Part shown: piece after piece, positions 11,450 to 38,965 of the stretch
Numbering within the stretch: position 1 is the first letter of the stretch
Layout of the letters: the number at the start of each line of letters is the position of its first letter
Source of the DNA: an uncultured Clostridia bacterium
GTDB taxonomy: Bacteria; Bacillota; Clostridia; Lachnospirales; CAG-274
DNA length: 64,000 bases
Direction: 5' to 3'
Assembly (NCBI GenBank): GCA_944384235.1
Contig: CALWSP010000025.1
Location: forward strand, 124,001-188,000
Translations under genes and position numbers: made by a program
Notes under the pieces: generated by a model
What the model saw: the letters and a program-made list of their open reading frames with translations, nothing else
Told to the model about the DNA's origin: nothing
The model's database searches: none

Positions 11450-12712
11450 TTATTTAATATCTTCTGGGTCTGTAATTTCGCCAGTTATAGCAGATGCAGC
11501 TGCAACTGCTGGCGAACAAAGATAAACTTCAGATTCAGGGTGTCCCATACGACCAATAAAGTTTCTGTTAGTCGTAGATAATGATCTTTCACCTTTAGCA
11601 AGAATACCCATATGGCCACCAAGACAAGGTCCACAAGTAGGTGTAGAAAATACACAACCTGCTTCAACAAAAATTTTAGCTAAGCCTTCCTCAACACATT
11701 CTAACCAAATCTTTTGAGTACCTGGTAAAATAATAGCCCTCATATTAGGAGCAATTTTCTTTCCCTTTAAAATTTCAGCTGCTGCTCTCATATCTCCAAT
11801 TCTACCATTAGTACAAGAACCGATAACGACTTGGTCAATTTTTACCCCCTTAGCTTCGTCAATAGTTTTAGTGTTTTCTGGCAAATGAGGGAAAGCAACA
11901 GTTGATCTTAAAGTTGCTAAATCAATTTCATAAACCTCATCATACTCTGCATCATCATCAGCCTCAAAAACAACAGGAGTTTTCTTAGAATGTTCCTTAA
12001 CATATTCTAAAGTTTTTTCATCAACTGGGAAAATACCATTTTTACCACCAGCTTCAATAGCCATATTAGCAATTGTAAACCTGTCGTCCATAGATAAATA
12101 CTTAATGCCATCTCCTACAAACTCCATAGACTTATATAATGCACCGTCCACACCAATCATACCAATAATGTGTAAAATAATATCTTTACCACTTACAAAC
12201 TTAGCAGGCTTGTTTTTTAACACAAATTTTAAAGCACTAGGCACCTTAAACCAAGCCACACCTCTAGCCATACCAACAGCCATATCAGTTGAACCTACGC
12301 CTGTTGAAAAAGCACCTAAAGCACCATAAGTACAAGTATGCGAATCTGCGCCAATAATTACATCGCCTGGCACAGCAAGACCAGCCTCAGGAATTAAACA
12401 ATGTTCAATGCCCATTTGGCCAACTTCAAAATAATTTTCAATTTCCTTTTCGTTAGCAAATTCCCTTACACATTTGCAATGCTCAGCTGACTTAATGTCT
12501 TTGTTAGGTGTAAAATGGTCTGGAACAATTGCCACCTTATTTTTGTCAAAAACCTTATTAACACCAATTTTGTTAAACTCTGTAATTGCCACAGGAGTTG
12601 TAACATCGTTTCCAAGAACAAGGTCTAAATTAGCTTCAATAAGCTGACCTGCCTTAACAGATTCAAGACCAGCGTGAGCTGCTAAAATTTTTTGAGTCAT
12701 CGTCATACCCAT
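11450..12712 (-). CDS. leuC: 3-isopropylmalate dehydratase, large subunit
   Basis: LeuC is the [4Fe-4S] catalytic subunit that isomerises 2- to 3-isopropylmalate. The 420-residue length fits the short LeuC type common in Clostridia and Archaea. Cluster cysteines are in [10 protein letters not shown] and [10 protein letters not shown], and an active-site segment is [20 protein letters not shown]. The start has GGGAGG 9 bases upstream. Short LeuCD can also act in the citramalate route, which matters because a synthase relic lies just upstream. Confidence 0.96.
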
Positions 12713-12768
12713 AACTACATTCCTCCCAATTCTTTCTAAAATATCAAAACCAACAATATTTATCCCTT

Positions 12769-12817
12769 TTTATAGCATAAACCTAGCCTTCAAAATCTGA
12801 GGGTGAAATGCTATAAA
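12769..12817 (-). repeat. 10-bp inverted repeat upstream of leuC
   Basis: TTTATAGCAT at 12769-12778 pairs with ATGCTATAAA at 12808-12817, giving a stem with a 29-base loop in the leuC leader. A second inverted pair, CTGAGGGTG at 12797-12805 and CACCCTCAG at 12854-12862, overlaps it. The two foldings exclude each other in part, so this could be a simple attenuator or debris of the deleted gene. I see no U tract strong enough to call a terminator. Confidence 0.4.
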
Positions 12818-12827
12818 TTAATAACTA

Positions 12828-12899
12828 TTAAAAACAATCTACACTAAAAGATACACCCTCAGCATTAGCTCCATCTCTTAATGTAGATAAATAGCCATT
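12828..12899 (-). pseudogene. N-terminal relic of a citramalate/2-isopropylmalate synthase gene
   Basis: Reading the minus strand from about 12899, one frame encodes GYLSTLRDGANAEGVSFSVD and then stops at 12828-12830. The core TLRDGA-x-x-EG-(V/I)-SFSV is the N-terminal signature of the DRE-TIM synthase family, best matching CimA/LeuA-like proteins (DTTLRDGA..EG.SFS). There is no in-frame ATG and SD, and nothing of the remaining several hundred codons is present before leuC. The position between ilvC and leuC is where many clostridial clusters carry leuA or cimA, so I read this as the stump of a deleted gene. It cannot be functional. Confidence 0.7.
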
Positions 12900-12910
12900 T
12901 TTATAATATA

Positions 12911-12929
12911 GGGCGTCACAAGGACGCCC
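12911..12929 (-). terminator. Hairpin downstream of ilvC, possible weak terminator
   Basis: A perfect 7-bp GC-rich stem (GGGCGTC 12911-12917 with GACGCCC 12923-12929) and 5-base loop lies 16 bases after the ilvC stop. The bases after it on the minus strand (TATATTATAAAAA) are not a good U tract, so it may protect the ilvN-ilvC mRNA 3' end rather than terminate it fully. Confidence 0.5.
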
Positions 12930-12945
12930 AAAAATTTTATTTAAA

Positions 12946-14019
<1,074 letters not shown>

Positions 14020-14622: not shown

Positions 14623-14893
14623 AAAAAAGCCCCTGACTATAAAAAGTCAGGGACGAATTATCGTGTTACCACCCTAGTTCAAGTGCACATCACTGTACAC
14701 TCCTTAACAGGTTCAATCAAACCTTGGCCTATAACGGGGCTACCGTTCCACTCCTACTAAATTCTGAGGGAAAGCTCCTGAGTGATAAATAAAATCTAAG
14801 ACTTAATGTCTTTCAGCAAACGACATCTCTCTGGAAAGCCTTTTTGAAATTACCTGTATCTCAATCAACACTTTTAAAACAATTAAATAATTA
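14623..14893 (-). promoter_or_regulatory. T-box leader, predicted tRNA-Ile responsive, upstream of ilvN-ilvC
   Basis: The minus-strand leader has all hallmarks of a T-box. These are a stem I with the AGAGAGATGTCG arm and its partner GACAT, the T-box sequence AGGGTGGTAACACG at 14662-14675, and an intrinsic terminator (8-bp stem, 14631-14638 with 14645-14652, then six U). Aligning the strand after stem I with the valS T-box in this window (ATC-A-CTCAGGAGC against GTA-G-CTCTGGAG) places the specifier at 14784-14786, reading ATC for isoleucine. Uncharged tRNA-Ile would favour the antiterminator and read-through into ilvN. Confidence 0.93.
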
Positions 14894-15186: not shown

Positions 15187-18100
15187 TTATTTAAAACTAT
15201 AACTCGAATCAAGCACCTTCTGTAAAATTTTTGCAACATCTTCACTTGTAATTTCTGCCTTGCCAGAAACTTTAGCTCTTTCAAGCTGTTCTTCTGTTAA
15301 TGGGTTTTTCTCTGGATTTAAAACATAAGATAAAGTAATTTCTGCATCGTTTATATCCACAACACCATTAAGGTTTACATCTCCAAGGGTTGATGTAATA
15401 TTATCTAACTTAATTTCGCTAAATACAGTGCCGTTGTATTTTACAAGAGGCATTGTATCTTGAGCAGCATCTGTTGCAAAACCAACAAAAACGCTTTCTC
15501 CTAAAGTTGTTTTAAATGTGTCCATTTCATACCAGTTCACACCGTTTAAAGAAGCAGATAAAGTAACTTTGTCCCCACTTCTTTCAACCTTTGCCCAGCC
15601 ATAATTTCTTTCTTGGTCCACTCTAACAACTGGAACACCTAACATATTGTTAGTGTAGCTAACTCCAGAGCCTTGGCTCTTTCTATACATAGTTCTAACA
15701 TTTTTAGCCTTAACAGGAGAACCAGAAATGTCCTTAACGCCATCATAATCTTCTCCCTTAATGTATGTAAGAGAAGCCATATAAAATTCACTGTCAGCAT
15801 CTAAAGAGTTTCTAACCATAAGGCCTGATTGTTGCATATAGTCAAGTTTAGCAAGGTTATCCATTTTTGCTACAAAACTAAAGTCGCCTTTTACTTCTTT
15901 GTAGTTAAAGTGGAAAGCATCTGGGTTTTGGTTTGAACTTGTGTTTAAAATACCAATATGTCCAGCACCTGTTGAAACAAGAGTGTTTTTATCCTTGTCA
16001 TAATAGTCGTTACCCTTAGCTCTAACACCACCAATGTCAGTTGAAGTAAAGCCCTCAAGGTTTCCATTTTGACCACTTTCAATAACAGTAACTAAAACAG
16101 GAGTTGAAATACCTGTTCCATTTTTGCCATAAGCCTTTACACTAAGATAATACATTCCAACTTCAACATCGCTTGGAATACTAAAATCATCAGTGTTTTC
16201 AGCTATAACCTTGTCATTTAATAAAATCTTGTAATTGTCATAACTACCAGAAATGTTTTTGCTAACACTATAAACATTTCCCTTAACTAATGTTGTGTTA
16301 ACATCTATGCCATTTGTGTTGTCATCGCCAGTAATGTCGTTAATTACAATAACTGGGTTTTGAGCTTTAACAGGTTTAACACTGCTCTCTTTCCACTCGC
16401 CTAATAACTCGTTTGCATAAATTTCAACATTAGTGTAACCACAATAAGACTTAGTTTCATCAGTAACAATTAAAGTAGCGTCAGCTTTGTTGTTAGGGTC
16501 AAGGCCGTGGCTAATTTCCCACTCGTCAGGAATACCGTCTAAGTCGCTATCTGCCTTAACACTGCCAGCTATAACATCAGTTTCAATGCCGCCAGCTTCA
16601 AACTGGTCGTTAATAAATCTACCAGTGCCATTTACAACTTCGTTAACAAGCCTTGAGTCTTGTGCATCTCTAAAATAACTAGCACCAACTTCATCAATAA
16701 CCTTGTCATAAGCCTCGTTTGCACTGCTTGCAGTGTAACCGTTTTTAAGCTCAACAGGTTTAGCTAAAATATCGTTATTATTTATTTGATAAAAACCTAA
16801 TAAATTGTTGTTTGTAACATCTTGGCTAGATGTCATAACATTGTCTTTAAAGTAATACTTACTAGTAGTTCCATCTACATCAAAAATTCTAGTGTTTACT
16901 TTTTCAAGAGTGTTAGGGCCTGGCTTATAGTAGTTTCCAATAAAGTTAGTGTTTCCACTTCCTCTTTCTCCACCATAACCAGAGTTATGACCCCAGTTGT
17001 AAATAACATTGTTTGAAAATTCTACTTTGTTTCCATAATTTGTGGAATTGTAAGAAAAACCACCTTCAAATCTTGGGTTTCTAGTTCCGTGGTTAGCCCA
17101 AAGGTTGTGAGTAAAAGATACTTCATAACCATTTAAAATAGAACCCATACCGTGCTTAGCTTCGCTTTCGCCAGCCATAATTTCAGCGTCGTTGTTTTTA
17201 ATGCCAGTTTTGTCTGGAAAAGCCATACTGTTTGCAATAATGTTGTACTGAATACTAGAATTTATAATTTCTTTAGCAGTAAAACACTCGTCAACGCCCC
17301 AAGTAAATGTACAATGGTCAATAACAATGTTTTCACCAGTTGCAGTTGCAGCGTCTAAGTCATATCCCTCACCAAGACGGAACCTTAAATGTCTAGCTAT
17401 AATGTTAGTTCCACTAAATTTAGCAGAAGCACCATATATTGTAATACCCTCGCCAGGAGCAGTTTGACCTAAAATTGTAGTGTTGCTACCTATGTTAAAT
17501 CTTCTGTTGCTCTTGCTAGCTTCTGGGTCAATGTTTATAACACCACTTACAGCAAATGTTATAATTCTTGGATATTCAGTGTTGCCATCTTTTCTGTCTT
17601 TTCTAAGTAAACCATATCTTAAAGAACCTGGCTCTGGGTTAGTTACAGAGTCAGATAAATTAGTAACTACATACACATCAGCTTGCTTTTCAACACTACC
17701 TCTACCACCCTGAGAATACATACCGCCACCTTCAACAGTTGGGAAAGCTGGGTATTTAACAGCACCCTTTGGAGTAGTAATTTTAGTTTCAAATGTTTTG
17801 TAAACTAAACTAGTGTTTTTAGCACTTGTTGCAGTAACTCTAATATAATATTCTGTGTCGTCTTCAAAACTGCCTTGTAAAGTTTCAACATACTGGTCTT
17901 CTAAGAAGAAAGTGTTTAATCTGTCGTTAGCAGTTGTTCCATCGTCTTTGTATCTAGTTAATTTTTTTCCGTGGTTAATAGTGCTCATAATATGGTCTTG
18001 AGTCCAAGTTTGGCCATCTTTTGAGTACTCAATTTTGTAAGCGTCAGCAAAACTGCTTGCAACCACAGTGCCATCAATGTAAACATCTTTAACATTTTGG

Positions 18101-18507
18101 GAAGTCTTAGGGTCAATACAAGCCACCTTGTATGGTGTTTCTTTTTCCACAAGACCCATAATAATTTCACAATCTCCATTAACACTTTGGTTAGGGTTTG
18201 AAGTTGTGCTTCCGTCAATTTTCCAGTTAGGGTATGCAATAATCATACCTGCTGTTGGCACAGTCCAGCCTCCAGTTGGGTTGCCGTAAGCTGATGTCGA
18301 TTTTAATGGGTTAGCGTCAATTAATGCACCATTTTTGTCAACAGCTGGCCAAGTTATAACAATTTTGCCATCTTCAATACTAGCTTCAACATCTTTAGTT
18401 TTTCTGTAATTGTAGCCCTCAACATCGTACCTAGCAAATACATTCATAGGCACTAAGGATAAAACAATAACAAAACTAAGCATTAAAGCTATAAACTTTT
18501 TTGTCAT
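15187..18507 (-). CDS. Secreted multidomain pectate lyase (PL1-like) with dockerin-like C-terminus
   Basis: The 1106-residue protein has a signal peptide (residues 1-25, ending VFA) and an N-terminal fibronectin-like region. A pectate-lyase beta-helix follows from about residue 250, with segments GSLRYGLLRKD, TTILGQTAPGEGITIYG, IIARHLRFRLG and IVIDHCTFTWGVDE typical of PL1-related lyases. After it come a calcium-binding DSDLDGIPDEWE segment, an Ig/Fn-like part and a DUF1349-like beta-sandwich. The last 65 residues look like a dockerin type I domain: the first repeat GDVNLNGVVDINDAE keeps the Ca-loop spacing, while the second is degenerate. It should cleave pectin outside the cell. It is monocistronic with its own promoter and terminator. 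Confidence 0.88.
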   Translation of the reverse strand: MTKKFIALMLSFVIVLSLVPMNVFARYDVEGYNYRKTKDVEASIEDGKIVITWPAVDKNGALIDANPLKSTSAYGNPTGGWTVPTAGMIIAYPNWKIDGSTTSNPNQSVNGDCEIIMGLVEKETPYKVACIDPKTSQNVKDVYIDGTVVASSFADAYKIEYSKDGQTWTQDHIMSTINHGKKLTRYKDDGTTANDRLNTFFLEDQYVETLQGSFEDDTEYYIRVTATSAKNTSLVYKTFETKITTPKGAVKYPAFPTVEGGGMYSQGGRGSVEKQADVYVVTNLSDSVTNPEPGSLRYGLLRKDRKDGNTEYPRIITFAVSGVINIDPEASKSNRRFNIGSNTTILGQTAPGEGITIYGASAKFSGTNIIARHLRFRLGEGYDLDAATATGENIVIDHCTFTWGVDECFTAKEIINSSIQYNIIANSMAFPDKTGIKNNDAEIMAGESEAKHGMGSILNGYEVSFTHNLWANHGTRNPRFEGGFSYNSTNYGNKVEFSNNVIYNWGHNSGYGGERGSGNTNFIGNYYKPGPNTLEKVNTRIFDVDGTTSKYYFKDNVMTSSQDVTNNNLLGFYQINNNDILAKPVELKNGYTASSANEAYDKVIDEVGASYFRDAQDSRLVNEVVNGTGRFINDQFEAGGIETDVIAGSVKADSDLDGIPDEWEISHGLDPNNKADATLIVTDETKSYCGYTNVEIYANELLGEWKESSVKPVKAQNPVIVINDITGDDNTNGIDVNTTLVKGNVYSVSKNISGSYDNYKILLNDKVIAENTDDFSIPSDVEVGMYYLSVKAYGKNGTGISTPVLVTVIESGQNGNLEGFTSTDIGGVRAKGNDYYDKDKNTLVSTGAGHIGILNTSSNQNPDAFHFNYKEVKGDFSFVAKMDNLAKLDYMQQSGLMVRNSLDADSEFYMASLTYIKGEDYDGVKDISGSPVKAKNVRTMYRKSQGSGVSYTNNMLGVPVVRVDQERNYGWAKVERSGDKVTLSASLNGVNWYEMDTFKTTLGESVFVGFATDAAQDTMPLVKYNGTVFSEIKLDNITSTLGDVNLNGVVDINDAEITLSYVLNPEKNPLTEEQLERAKVSGKAEITSEDVAKILQKVLDSSYSFK

Positions 18508-20313: not shown

Positions 20314-20346
20314 ATTTAGACCAGCTTTAAAAATAAATATTAAAAT

Positions 20347-20470
20347 TTATGCTAGGGGAGTTTATTTACTGAGACGTTTCATACGGACCCTTATTACTTG
20401 AACCAGATAATACTGGCGTAAGGAAGCAAATAAAAATCCTTTTAGCATAAAAACTAAGGAGGATTTTTTT
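20347..20470 (+). promoter_or_regulatory. TPP (thi-box) riboswitch controlling thiT
   Basis: The core of the thi-box is present: GGGGAG, then ACTGAGA in the pyrimidine-sensing arm, then ACCC, TTGAACC and CTGGCGTAAGGAAGC, ending about 20427. Two competing helices follow from the sequence. TTATGCTA (20347-20354) pairs exactly with TAGCATAA (20443-20450), while AAAAATCC (20432-20439) can pair with GGATTTTT (20461-20468), which covers the SD AAGGAGG and resembles a terminator with a U run. TPP binding would therefore be expected to turn thiT off by sequestering the SD, by early termination, or both. Confidence 0.9.
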
Positions 20471-36070: not shown

Positions 36071-38698
36071 TTAATTAAATTTAGCTAATTGTTCTTCAAC
36101 GCTTTTAAGCATACCGCTATATTTTTCAAATTTAGCCTTTTCTTCCTTAATTACCTTCTCAGGTGCTTTAGCAACAAAGCCCTCGTTAGATAATTTCTTT
36201 TCAACTCTTTCCACTTCTTTAATAAGTTTTTCTCTTTCCTTGTTAAGTCTTTCTTTTTCTTTTTCAATGTCCACAAGCTCAGCAAATGGCATATAAATTA
36301 CACCACTGTTAATAGGTGTAGAAATTGCATCTTCTTCAATTCCAACCTTGTCAGTTTGAACAAAAACTTCACTAGCATAAGCAAGAGGTGCAAAGAAAAC
36401 TTTTCCTTTTTCAAAAATGTTTCTAACTTCTTCGCTTTCACTAACAACAAAAACGTTAGTTTTTCTGCTTGGAACAACATTCATTTCAGCTCTAATGTTT
36501 CTAATAGACTTAATAGCCTCTTTCATAAGCTCAATAGATTTTTCGTCTTCTTCAAAGGAAAATCTTTCTTCAAATTCTGGCCATTTAGAATACATAATAG
36601 TTTCTTCTTCGCTCTGAACTGCTGTAAATATTTCCTCTGTAACAAAAGGCATAAATGGGTGTAACATTTTTAAAGCATTAATAAGAACAGTCTTTAAAGT
36701 CCATAAAGCAGCGTTTCTAGTTGGGTCCTCTTGGTTATATAATCTAGGCTTAACCATTTCTATATACCAGTCGCAATACTCGTCCCAAATAAAATCATAT
36801 ACATTTTGAACTGCAATACCAAGCTCGTAAGAATCAAGGTTTGAAGTAACATTTTTAGCTAAAGAGTTAACCTTGCTAAGAATCCACTTGTCAGCAGCTG
36901 TAAGCTCAGATAACTCGCAACTAGGGTTTTCATCACCAATGTGCATCATAACAAACCTAGAAGCATTCCATAACTTGTTAGCAAAGTTTTTGCTGCTTTC
37001 AACTCTTTCGTTGTAAAATCTCATATCATTACCAGGAGCATTTCCTGTAATTAAAGTTAATCTTAAAGCATCAGCTCCAGATTCTCTAATAATTTCAAGA
37101 GGGTCAATGCCGTTGCCAAGAGATTTACTCATCTTTCTACCTTGGCTATCTCTAACAAGGCCGTGAATAAGAACTGTTTTAAATGGAACTTCGCCCATTT
37201 GCTCCATAGCAGAAAATACCATTCTAACAACCCAGAAGAAAATAATATCATATCCTGTAACAAGAACACTTGTAGGGTAGAAATGCTCTAATTCTTCTGT
37301 CTTTTCAGGCCAACCTAAAGTTGAAAATGGCCATAAAGCTGAAGAAAACCAAGTATCTAAACAGTCCTCGTCTTGCTTTAAACTTGTGCTGCTACATTTT
37401 GGGCAACAACTTGGCTTGTCCTTGCTAACAATAACATTGCCACACTCACAATAATAAGCTGGAATTCTATGACCCCACCAAAGCTGACGAGATATACACC
37501 AATCGTGAATATCCTCTAACCAATGGGTATAAATTTTACCAAATCTGTCTGGAACAAACTTTAAATCCCCTTTGTAATAAGCGTTAAGAGCTGGCTTAGC
37601 AAGTTCCTCCATTTTAACAAACCATTGTTTTTTAATAAGAGGCTCAATAACAGCACCACACCTGTCGTGGGTACCAACAGAGTGGTTAATATCTTCTTTC
37701 TCAATAAAAAGACCCATTTCATCAAGCTCAGCAATAATCTGCTTTCTAGCTTCATATCTATCTAAACCTGCAAACTTGCCACCATTTTCGTTTATAGTTC
37801 CATCGTCATTTAAAATGTTAATCTTCTCAAGGTTGTGTCTTTCTCCAACCTCAAAGTCGTTAGGGTCGTGAGCTGGTGTAATCTTAACAACGCCTGTACC
37901 AAATTCCTTGTCAACATAACTGTCAGCAATAATAGGAATTTCTCTGTCAACAAAAGGAACAATACAAACCTTTCCAACTAAATCAGCGTATCTTTCATCT
38001 TCAGGGTTAACTGCTATTGCTGTGTCGCCTAACATAGTTTCTGGTCTAGTTGTAGCAAACTCTAAAAACATATCAGTGTCTTTAATAGGGTATTTAATGT
38101 GCCAGAAACCACCTTGCTTGTCCTCGTGTTCAACCTCTGCGTCAGAAATAGTAGTTTGGCAAGTTGGGCACCAGTTTATTAACTTCTCGCCCTGGTAAAT
38201 ATATCCTTTTTCATATAAATTGCAAAATACAGTTAAAACAGCGTCAGAAAGACCCTCGTCCATAGTAAATCTTTCTCTCTCCCAGTCACAAGAAGCACCT
38301 AACTTCTTTAACTGGTTTAAAATAGTTCCACCATATTCTTCTTTCCATTCCCAAGCTCTTTTCAAAAAGCCTTCTCTACCAAGAGTTTCTTTGTCAAGGC
38401 CTTCTTCACGCATTTTATTAACAATTTTAACTTCAGTTGAAATTGCAGCGTGGTCAGTTCCAGGAACCCAAAGTGCGTTGTATCCCTGCATTCTTTTCCA
38501 TCTAATAAGAATATCCTGCATAGTTTCGTCAAGAGCGTGACCCATATGAAGATGACCAGTTATATTTGGAGGTGGAATAACAATAGTAAAAGGTTCTTTA
38601 CTTTTGTCTACCTCAGCGTGAAAATAGCCTTTTTCCATCCAATGTTTGTATATTCTTTCTTCAATGGACGGGTCATAGCTTTTTGCCATTTCTCTCAT
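36071..38698 (-). CDS. valS: Valyl-tRNA synthetase
   Basis: The 875-residue class I synthetase charges tRNA-Val. The HIGH motif is [14 protein letters not shown] and the KMSKS motif [12 protein letters not shown]. The editing domain contains [15 protein letters not shown], and a C-terminal coiled coil is rich in Glu/Lys ([18 protein letters not shown]). The start at 38698 has AGGAGG ten bases upstream; the longer frame to 38731 runs into the leader. It is controlled by its own T-box. Confidence 0.97.
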
Positions 38699-38732
38699 TT
38701 TTTTATTTCCTCCTAAAATTATATATTTCAAT

Positions 38733-38965
38733 AAAAAAAGGACACTTCCATCTTTAAGGACGAAAGTATCCGTGGTACCACCTTAATTCCCTTTAACAAG
38801 GGCACTTAAAATCTTTAACGCAGAAATACGCTAAACCTACTACTACTTCAGCTTAGAAACTCCAGAGCTACCTTCAATACCCAATTCCACAAAGCACCTT
38901 TCAGCCACGAGTGCTTCTCTCTAAGAGTTTGGAATATCTACTCCTCTCCTTCAAAGTCAAAATCT
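38733..38965 (-). promoter_or_regulatory. T-box leader, predicted tRNA-Val responsive, upstream of valS
   Basis: The minus-strand leader shows an AGAGAGAAGCAC arm with its GGTGCT partner (stem I) and the T-box AAGGTGGTACCACGG at 38770-38784. A terminator stem follows (38740-38749 with 38762-38771) with a seven-U run. By alignment with the ilvN T-box, the specifier is at 38879-38881, reading GTA for valine, which fits the downstream gene. A second GTA lies nine bases upstream on the transcript at 38888-38890. The promoter probably lies within the end of the HPr-like gene, but I see no clear -35/-10 pair. Confidence 0.93.

Follow-up and report, generated by a model that had tools for sequence, protein, structure and literature searches.

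A probable cimA pseudogene, with a surviving hairpin, in the ilv-leu operon of an uncultured Clostridia bacterium

The interval that separates ilvC from leuC in this uncultured Clostridia bacterium is almost certainly a far-decayed cimA pseudogene, in which two pieces of the former gene can still be aligned (relics 1 and 2, Table 1). The window, by which we mean the whole stretch of 64,000 nucleotides that was analysed (G000:C25:124001-188000), comes from a genome of 1.75 Mb in 29 contigs that is rated 99% complete, and the ilvC-leuC slot sits within a 200-kb contig. The nearest named relatives of its ilvC are from uncultured Lachnospiraceae and other Clostridia MAGs, a listing that may omit records of the genome itself. 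For the most part we regard the find as the ordinary decay of a gene, the hairpin that relic 1 retains being its one curious feature.

Table 1. The ilv-leu operon and the cimA remnants (positions in the window)
Feature	Position	Strand	Basis
T-box leader of ilvN-ilvC, specifier AUC (isoleucine)	14646..14877	minus	RF00230, 100.4 bits against a gathering cut-off of 93
ilvN	14572-14066	minus	gene name by eye and congener order
ilvC, ketol-acid reductoisomerase, intact	12946..13968	minus	340-aa ORF; 92-94% identity to six congeners
ilvC-leuC interval, 233 bp	12713..12945	minus	cimA slot in 6 of 6 congeners
GC-rich hairpin, terminator-like, 3' of ilvC	12911..12929	minus	pattern scan: 1 found against a shuffle mean of 0.1
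Relic 1, cimA 5' end, 7 bases lost near start codon	12838..12901	minus	DNA alignment with L034, L035, L039
Relic ATG, now out of frame with TLRDG motif	12896..12898	minus	comparison with L035
Hairpin in relic 1 (5' arm 12887-12873, loop 12872-12853, 3' arm 12852-12838)	12838..12887	minus	15 of 15 pairs
Relic 2, 16 bp matching the GISPS(E) codons of cimA	12796..12811	minus	exact and collinear in L034, L035, L039
leuC, intact	11450..12712	minus	420-aa ORF; aligned with congeners
leuD	11436-10930	minus	name by eye and congener order
leuB	10915-9806	minus	name by eye and congener order
ilvD	9698-8040	minus	name by eye and congener order
ilvB	8032-6344	minus	name by eye and congener order

All six congeners (G001-G006) carry a cimA that exceeds the curated TIGR00977 cut-off of 450 bits, and in each it shares a contig with ilvC, which it follows, and immediately precedes leuC. 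The genome studied here has none over the cut-off, so cimA is present in six of the seven genomes of the genus; its best TIGR00977 match anywhere reaches 67.5 bits and is leuA. The initial annotation had read this interval as the relic of a DRE-TIM synthase, for citramalate or isopropylmalate; the congener gene in the slot and DNA alignment scores far above shuffles bear this out, and the TIGR00977 assignment in all six makes the lost gene specifically cimA. Relatives thus hold a gene at this place and not the same non-coding leader.

The congener operons run ilvN-ilvC-cimA-leuC-leuD-leuB-ilvD-ilvB, some of them with additional genes in the leuB-ilvB stretch. Their ilvC-leuC intervals measure 1692-1898 bp, or 3495 bp in L039 (the locus of G003), which has an extra transporter-like gene, and cimA is inside all of them. 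That transporter-like gene (L039 3619-5202, 527 aa) stands between ilvC and cimA, as does one in G024 (L015), so this spacer can take insertions; inverted repeats were also seen by eye in the ilvC-cimA spacer of L034 to L038. The cimA product has 528-529 aa in five congeners and 493 aa in G003, which has a frameshift. This gene (G003:C97, L039 5241-6722 onward) is broken near the C-terminus, with its remaining 33 positions in another frame and one TGA; this may be another loss under way or an error of sequencing, the draft being fragmented.

Aligned locally at the DNA level with the corresponding intervals of L034, L035, and L039, the 233-bp gap scored 87, 94, and 92, against maxima of 39, 33, and 39 in 200 shuffles each. 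The part that aligns most strongly, relic 1, corresponds to about the first 20 codons of cimA, and its 50-base core is identical to L034 at 47 of 50 positions and to L039 at 48. The relic frame on the minus strand runs from 12899 to 12828 and ends in a stop after ...GYLSTLRDGANAEGVSFSVDCF; the full stop-to-stop frame around it has 42 codons (12956-12828), and the gap frame ending at 12828 reads STLRDGANAEGVSFSVDCF before its stop. Taken alone, the 23 relic residues matched no NCBIfam model; in a single BLASTP comparison with one congener's CimA, 15 of 17 positions were identical (E 2e-8). The initial annotation held that this frame has no start and stops after the motif. The stop is real, and a start is present too: an ATG that lies 11 bases from the TCT codon, compared with 18 in L035. 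In the upstream part of relic 1, 3, 3, and 1 bases are absent relative to L035, and because these 7 bases are missing between the ATG at 12898 and the motif, the two are out of frame. By eye, the ribosome-binding-like sequence that stands upstream in congeners is absent before the relic ATG. A leader-peptide attenuator was considered: the short frame MAIYLH from 12898 does reach a TAA ahead of the hairpin loop, but it has no such upstream sequence, and the idea was set aside.

LeuA and CimA are both members of the DRE-TIM superfamily, and their N-terminal RDG motifs are related. In the relic the letters TLRDGANAEGVSFSV agree with CimA and are unlike the N-terminus of the genome's own LeuA, SVDLRDGNQALEKPMN, which is of the yeast type, intact and encoded elsewhere.

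The second remnant was missing from the initial annotation. It is collinear with cimA and lies 26 bp from relic 1, where the corresponding distance in L034 is 164 bp. At only 16 bp its score of 32 is by itself inside the shuffle range (maxima 33-39), a point against the pseudogene interpretation; its order, its place, and its identity in three congeners make it a credible candidate for a cimA remnant. In slot and in relic 1 the interval resembles a cimA of an ilv-leu operon, and it differs in being non-functional, a former member only: the frame is disabled, about 1.5 kb of cimA is gone, and a functional copy is absent elsewhere in the draft genome, as befits a pseudogene. The start region of cimA would have been lost by small deletions and most of the body by at least two larger ones.

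Two other observations temper the conclusion that the interval is a cimA pseudogene. The draft is in 29 contigs, which leaves a small chance of a second cimA in its missing part, and the congeners are separate species, with no strain seen in an intermediate state. It is very improbable that the assembler simply dropped an intact cimA, as might happen in a draft of this kind, since a simple misjoin would not produce the small indels, the loss of the ribosome-binding-like sequence, or the more than 100 bp without alignment to cimA. The notion that the interval is an ordinary leader whose motif is a chance open frame, to which the lack of an open gene and of any NCBIfam match might lend some colour, is refuted for practical purposes by an alignment to cimA, at the DNA level, in the orthologous slot.

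A pattern scan found no promoter-like site in 12500-13200, and the relic is therefore probably transcribed through. The specifier register of the T-box that precedes ilvN was taken from the valS T-box (GUA). Its AUC specifier occurs in this genome and in all six congeners, which rules out a change of T-box specificity after the loss of cimA. The window holds other features as well: a T-box at 38753-38963 (specifier GUA) lies before a valyl-tRNA-synthetase-like gene (36071-38731), and a TPP riboswitch (20344-20441) precedes a gene for a thiamine transporter (PF09515, 20471-21157). Adjoining the operon, 15187-18507 encodes a probably secreted 1106-aa protein in which Pfam finds DUF1349 only; by eye its middle is like a pectate-lyase beta-helix and its C-terminus like a dockerin, and L039 has a C-terminal part resembling it in the corresponding position.

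What the loss would mean for the pathway can be read from the rest of the genome, which has only three HMGL-like proteins. L001 (G000:C25:38761-40389) is leuA, an intact 549-aa yeast-type 2-isopropylmalate synthase (TIGR00970, 744 bits; cut-off 697.4). L002 reaches no NCBIfam cut-off and stands before an isocitrate-dehydrogenase-like gene, so we take it for a synthase of the citrate or homocitrate type, and L003 is oxaloacetate decarboxylase alpha. The expectation of the initial annotation that the synthase must lie elsewhere thus holds for leuA, which is on the same contig; its alternative, that the leucine branch or the citramalate route is affected, is right for citramalate, with no cimA over the cut-off in a genome-wide search for both genes, and does not seem to hold for leucine. 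An intact 398-aa threonine ammonia-lyase is also present (TIGR01127, 492 bits; cut-off 378.75), so isoleucine synthesis need not suffer, and genes like those for threonine synthase and homoserine dehydrogenase were recognised by eye. By gene content, then, the citramalate entry to isoleucine would be lost, and the leucine branch and the threonine entry look intact. In a 2022 survey of gut genomes (PMC9026213), IlvA and CimA are treated as alternative first steps, so that one without the other is ordinary. The ancestor of this bacterium may have made 2-oxobutyrate in two ways, from pyruvate (CimA and LeuCDB) and from threonine (IlvA); cimA could have become dispensable in such a two-route ancestor, and LeuCDB would now serve leucine only.

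TrpB is a member of the PALP family. A PF00291 search of the genome returned three PALP proteins only, the threonine ammonia-lyase, a cysteine synthase-like protein, and a threonine synthase-like protein; tryptophan synthase beta was not found by this search, which hints at tryptophan auxotrophy.

Across the family, 36 of 48 genomes have a cimA over the cut-off. The 12 without it are the present genome, G041, G055, and G022, whose completeness (88%, 70%, and 71%) means that the absence may reflect missing sequence, and all eight genomes of genus g7. None of the g7 genomes has a cimA, yeast-type leuA, or TIGR01127 ilvA over the cut-offs, an apparent whole-genus loss of these branched-chain amino acid entries. 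A TIGR01127 threonine ammonia-lyase over the cut-off occurs in all seven genomes of the genus studied here and in only 14 of the 48 in the family. A search with ilvC covered 41 genomes (this one and 40 relatives), of which 31 matched.

The hairpin of relic 1 consists of TCTACATTAAGAGAT, a 20-base loop, and ATCTTTTAGTGTAGA. Relative to L034 there are no changes in its 30 stem bases and three in its 20 loop bases. The 233-bp gap folds better than its dinucleotide shuffles (z -3.88), as does a 111-nt core (z -3.76) in which the flanks of the hairpin add further pairing. The hairpin is not an intrinsic terminator: its stem is AT-rich and its loop has 20 bases, though TTGTTTTT follows it, and the terminator scan reports only the structure 3' of ilvC. 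A 9-base inverted repeat between the hairpin loop (CUGAGGGUG) and relic 2 (CACCCUCAG) occurs in L034, L035, L039, and this genome. A conserved loop-to-relic-2 pseudoknot is not supported, as the repeat has at most 7 bases in the other 15 genes in which the second site was located; in 9 of 27 genes the site was not found.

The same stem is found in intact cimA, with 15 pairs in 11 of 11 genes of genera g1, g4, and g10 and 14 pairs in five of five of g8. Synonymous-codon shuffles of these 16 genes average about 8-10 pairs, and the observed value was reached by 0-6 of 400. Of the 36 family genomes that have a cimA over the cut-off, 26 entered these tests (nine of g5 and one of g9 fell out, as not all of their loci were to hand or the motif pattern did not fit); L159, from another family, was extracted and then dropped from the set. 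By the same test the hairpin was not found in g2, in g3, in the four genes of g11, or in three of the four of g6, the remaining g6 gene (L086) having 12 pairs, equalled by 13 of 400 shuffles. In the alignment of the hairpin 97.8% of cells pair, compared with 34-61% when it is slid, and two stem pairs covary: U-A becomes A-U in g8, and A-U alternates with G-C in g4 with a G-U intermediate. By our reading of the tree of the rest of the CimA protein, these two pairs represent one to three events.

Searched with model R1, this genome has a single match, at the relic hairpin (E 8e-16). Matches occur in 35 of the 48 family genomes and, the relic excepted, lie at cimA 5' ends by contig and position; no copies elsewhere suggestive of a regulon were seen among the best 125 candidates per genome under strict filters. 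At the order level 52 of 295 genomes have a match, and the ten new loci that were read (L201-L210) are all cimA. Among these ten only L206 folds far better than its synonymous shuffles (z -4.63). The cimA start of L206 (G161, from another family of the order) has other codons and 12 of the 15 pairs of the same stem, and is possibly an independent version of the hairpin.

Why the hairpin is still there is a separate question. We consider it an even call whether mutation bias or chance preserved it, with deletions halted at the base of a stable hairpin and no selection. Homology stops exactly at the 3' stem base (12838), an edge that a hairpin-bounded deletion explains equally well, and the inverted repeat between loop and relic 2 could have guided deletions. 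The ends of decaying genes are, in general, often the last scraps to remain. Against chance, an identity of 47/50 is unusual for non-coding sequence: even in the intact neighbour genes, 51-nt windows at least 94% identical number 15 of 1411 for L034, 28 of 1410 for L035, and 35 of 876 for L039 (0 of 1412 and 11 of 874 for the further loci L037 and L043). The unchanged stem, the high stability of the hairpin among windows of cimA, and the rarity of such identity each lean towards retention for structure, but in one genome and with overlapping causes.

A reading that we think less likely than not is that selection keeps this 5' piece as an RNA hairpin which outlived the protein and acts on the ilv-leu mRNA, perhaps by forming a barrier or a processing site in the ilvC-leuC spacer. 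In its favour are the pairing, the covariation, the unchanged relic stem, and the added pairing of the relic flanks described above, together with the conservation of codons. Codon identity over the hairpin ranks first of 510 windows within g1 and for g1-g4, g1-g10, and g4-g10 (0.849 for g1-g4, where the mean is 0.544 and the sd 0.072), and fourth within g8; for g1-g8 it is average (rank 225), and in comparisons with g6 it is low (rank 503). The best g1-g4 values in neighbouring genes are 0.69 for leuC and 0.63 for ilvC; the g10 comparison covers neither ilvC nor leuD. Of all 50-base windows in cimA, the hairpin is also the one with the highest stability in five of seven genes (L034, L039, L036, L041, L083); it falls within the top 0.5% in L078 and the top 1.4% in L035.

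Several controls weigh against selection on the hairpin. Besides its absence from the genera listed above, the average g1-g8 codon identity, and covariation that amounts to two pairs, the start of leuC is equally codon-conserved within g1 (rank 1 of 409), so codon conservation at a gene start is not special within the genus. In a sliding synonymous-shuffle fold test the hairpin window ranks third of 590 in L034 and second of 589 in L035, eighth of 480 in L037 (z -2.68), and outside the top eight of 590 in L041 (z -2.85), and is therefore outside the top three in two of four loci; unrelated windows in ilvB and leuB equal or beat it. That the hairpin survived owing to a job in the ilvC-leuC mRNA is, on balance, a minority prospect.

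For comparison, a report on the reduced genomes of Buchnera (PMC3164680) describes spacers that consist of pseudogenes in decay and, as a distinct observation, hairpins conserved within spacers; the portion considered here gives no hairpin derived from the coding part of a lost gene, and in our case the loss is seen in one genome. Processing of the ilv-leu operon mRNA of Bacillus subtilis is named in PMC5794164, and that operon is alike in being under post-transcriptional control, with no homology of hairpins claimed. Judged by titles and the beginnings of abstracts, neither a cimA relic nor a hairpin in the cimA coding region appears among the few papers returned, which says little about the printed record.

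The fullest version of the RNA argument, which we offer tentatively and think on the whole unlikely, is that the hairpin in the first cimA codons of four Clostridia genera is selected at the RNA level and here has outlived its gene, cimA having been deleted around it, so that it would stand alone between ilvC and leuC as a putative element of regulation or mRNA stability, its flanks newly paired and its tail rich in U. Should this hold, nature would have provided a clean example of an RNA element within a coding sequence that can be separated from the protein, and the ilv-leu mRNA of these bacteria would be expected to have a control point so far unrecognised. For the question of auxotrophy, gene content suggests that this bacterium has kept branched-chain amino acid synthesis, with one of its two entries to isoleucine gone and the threonine entry kept.
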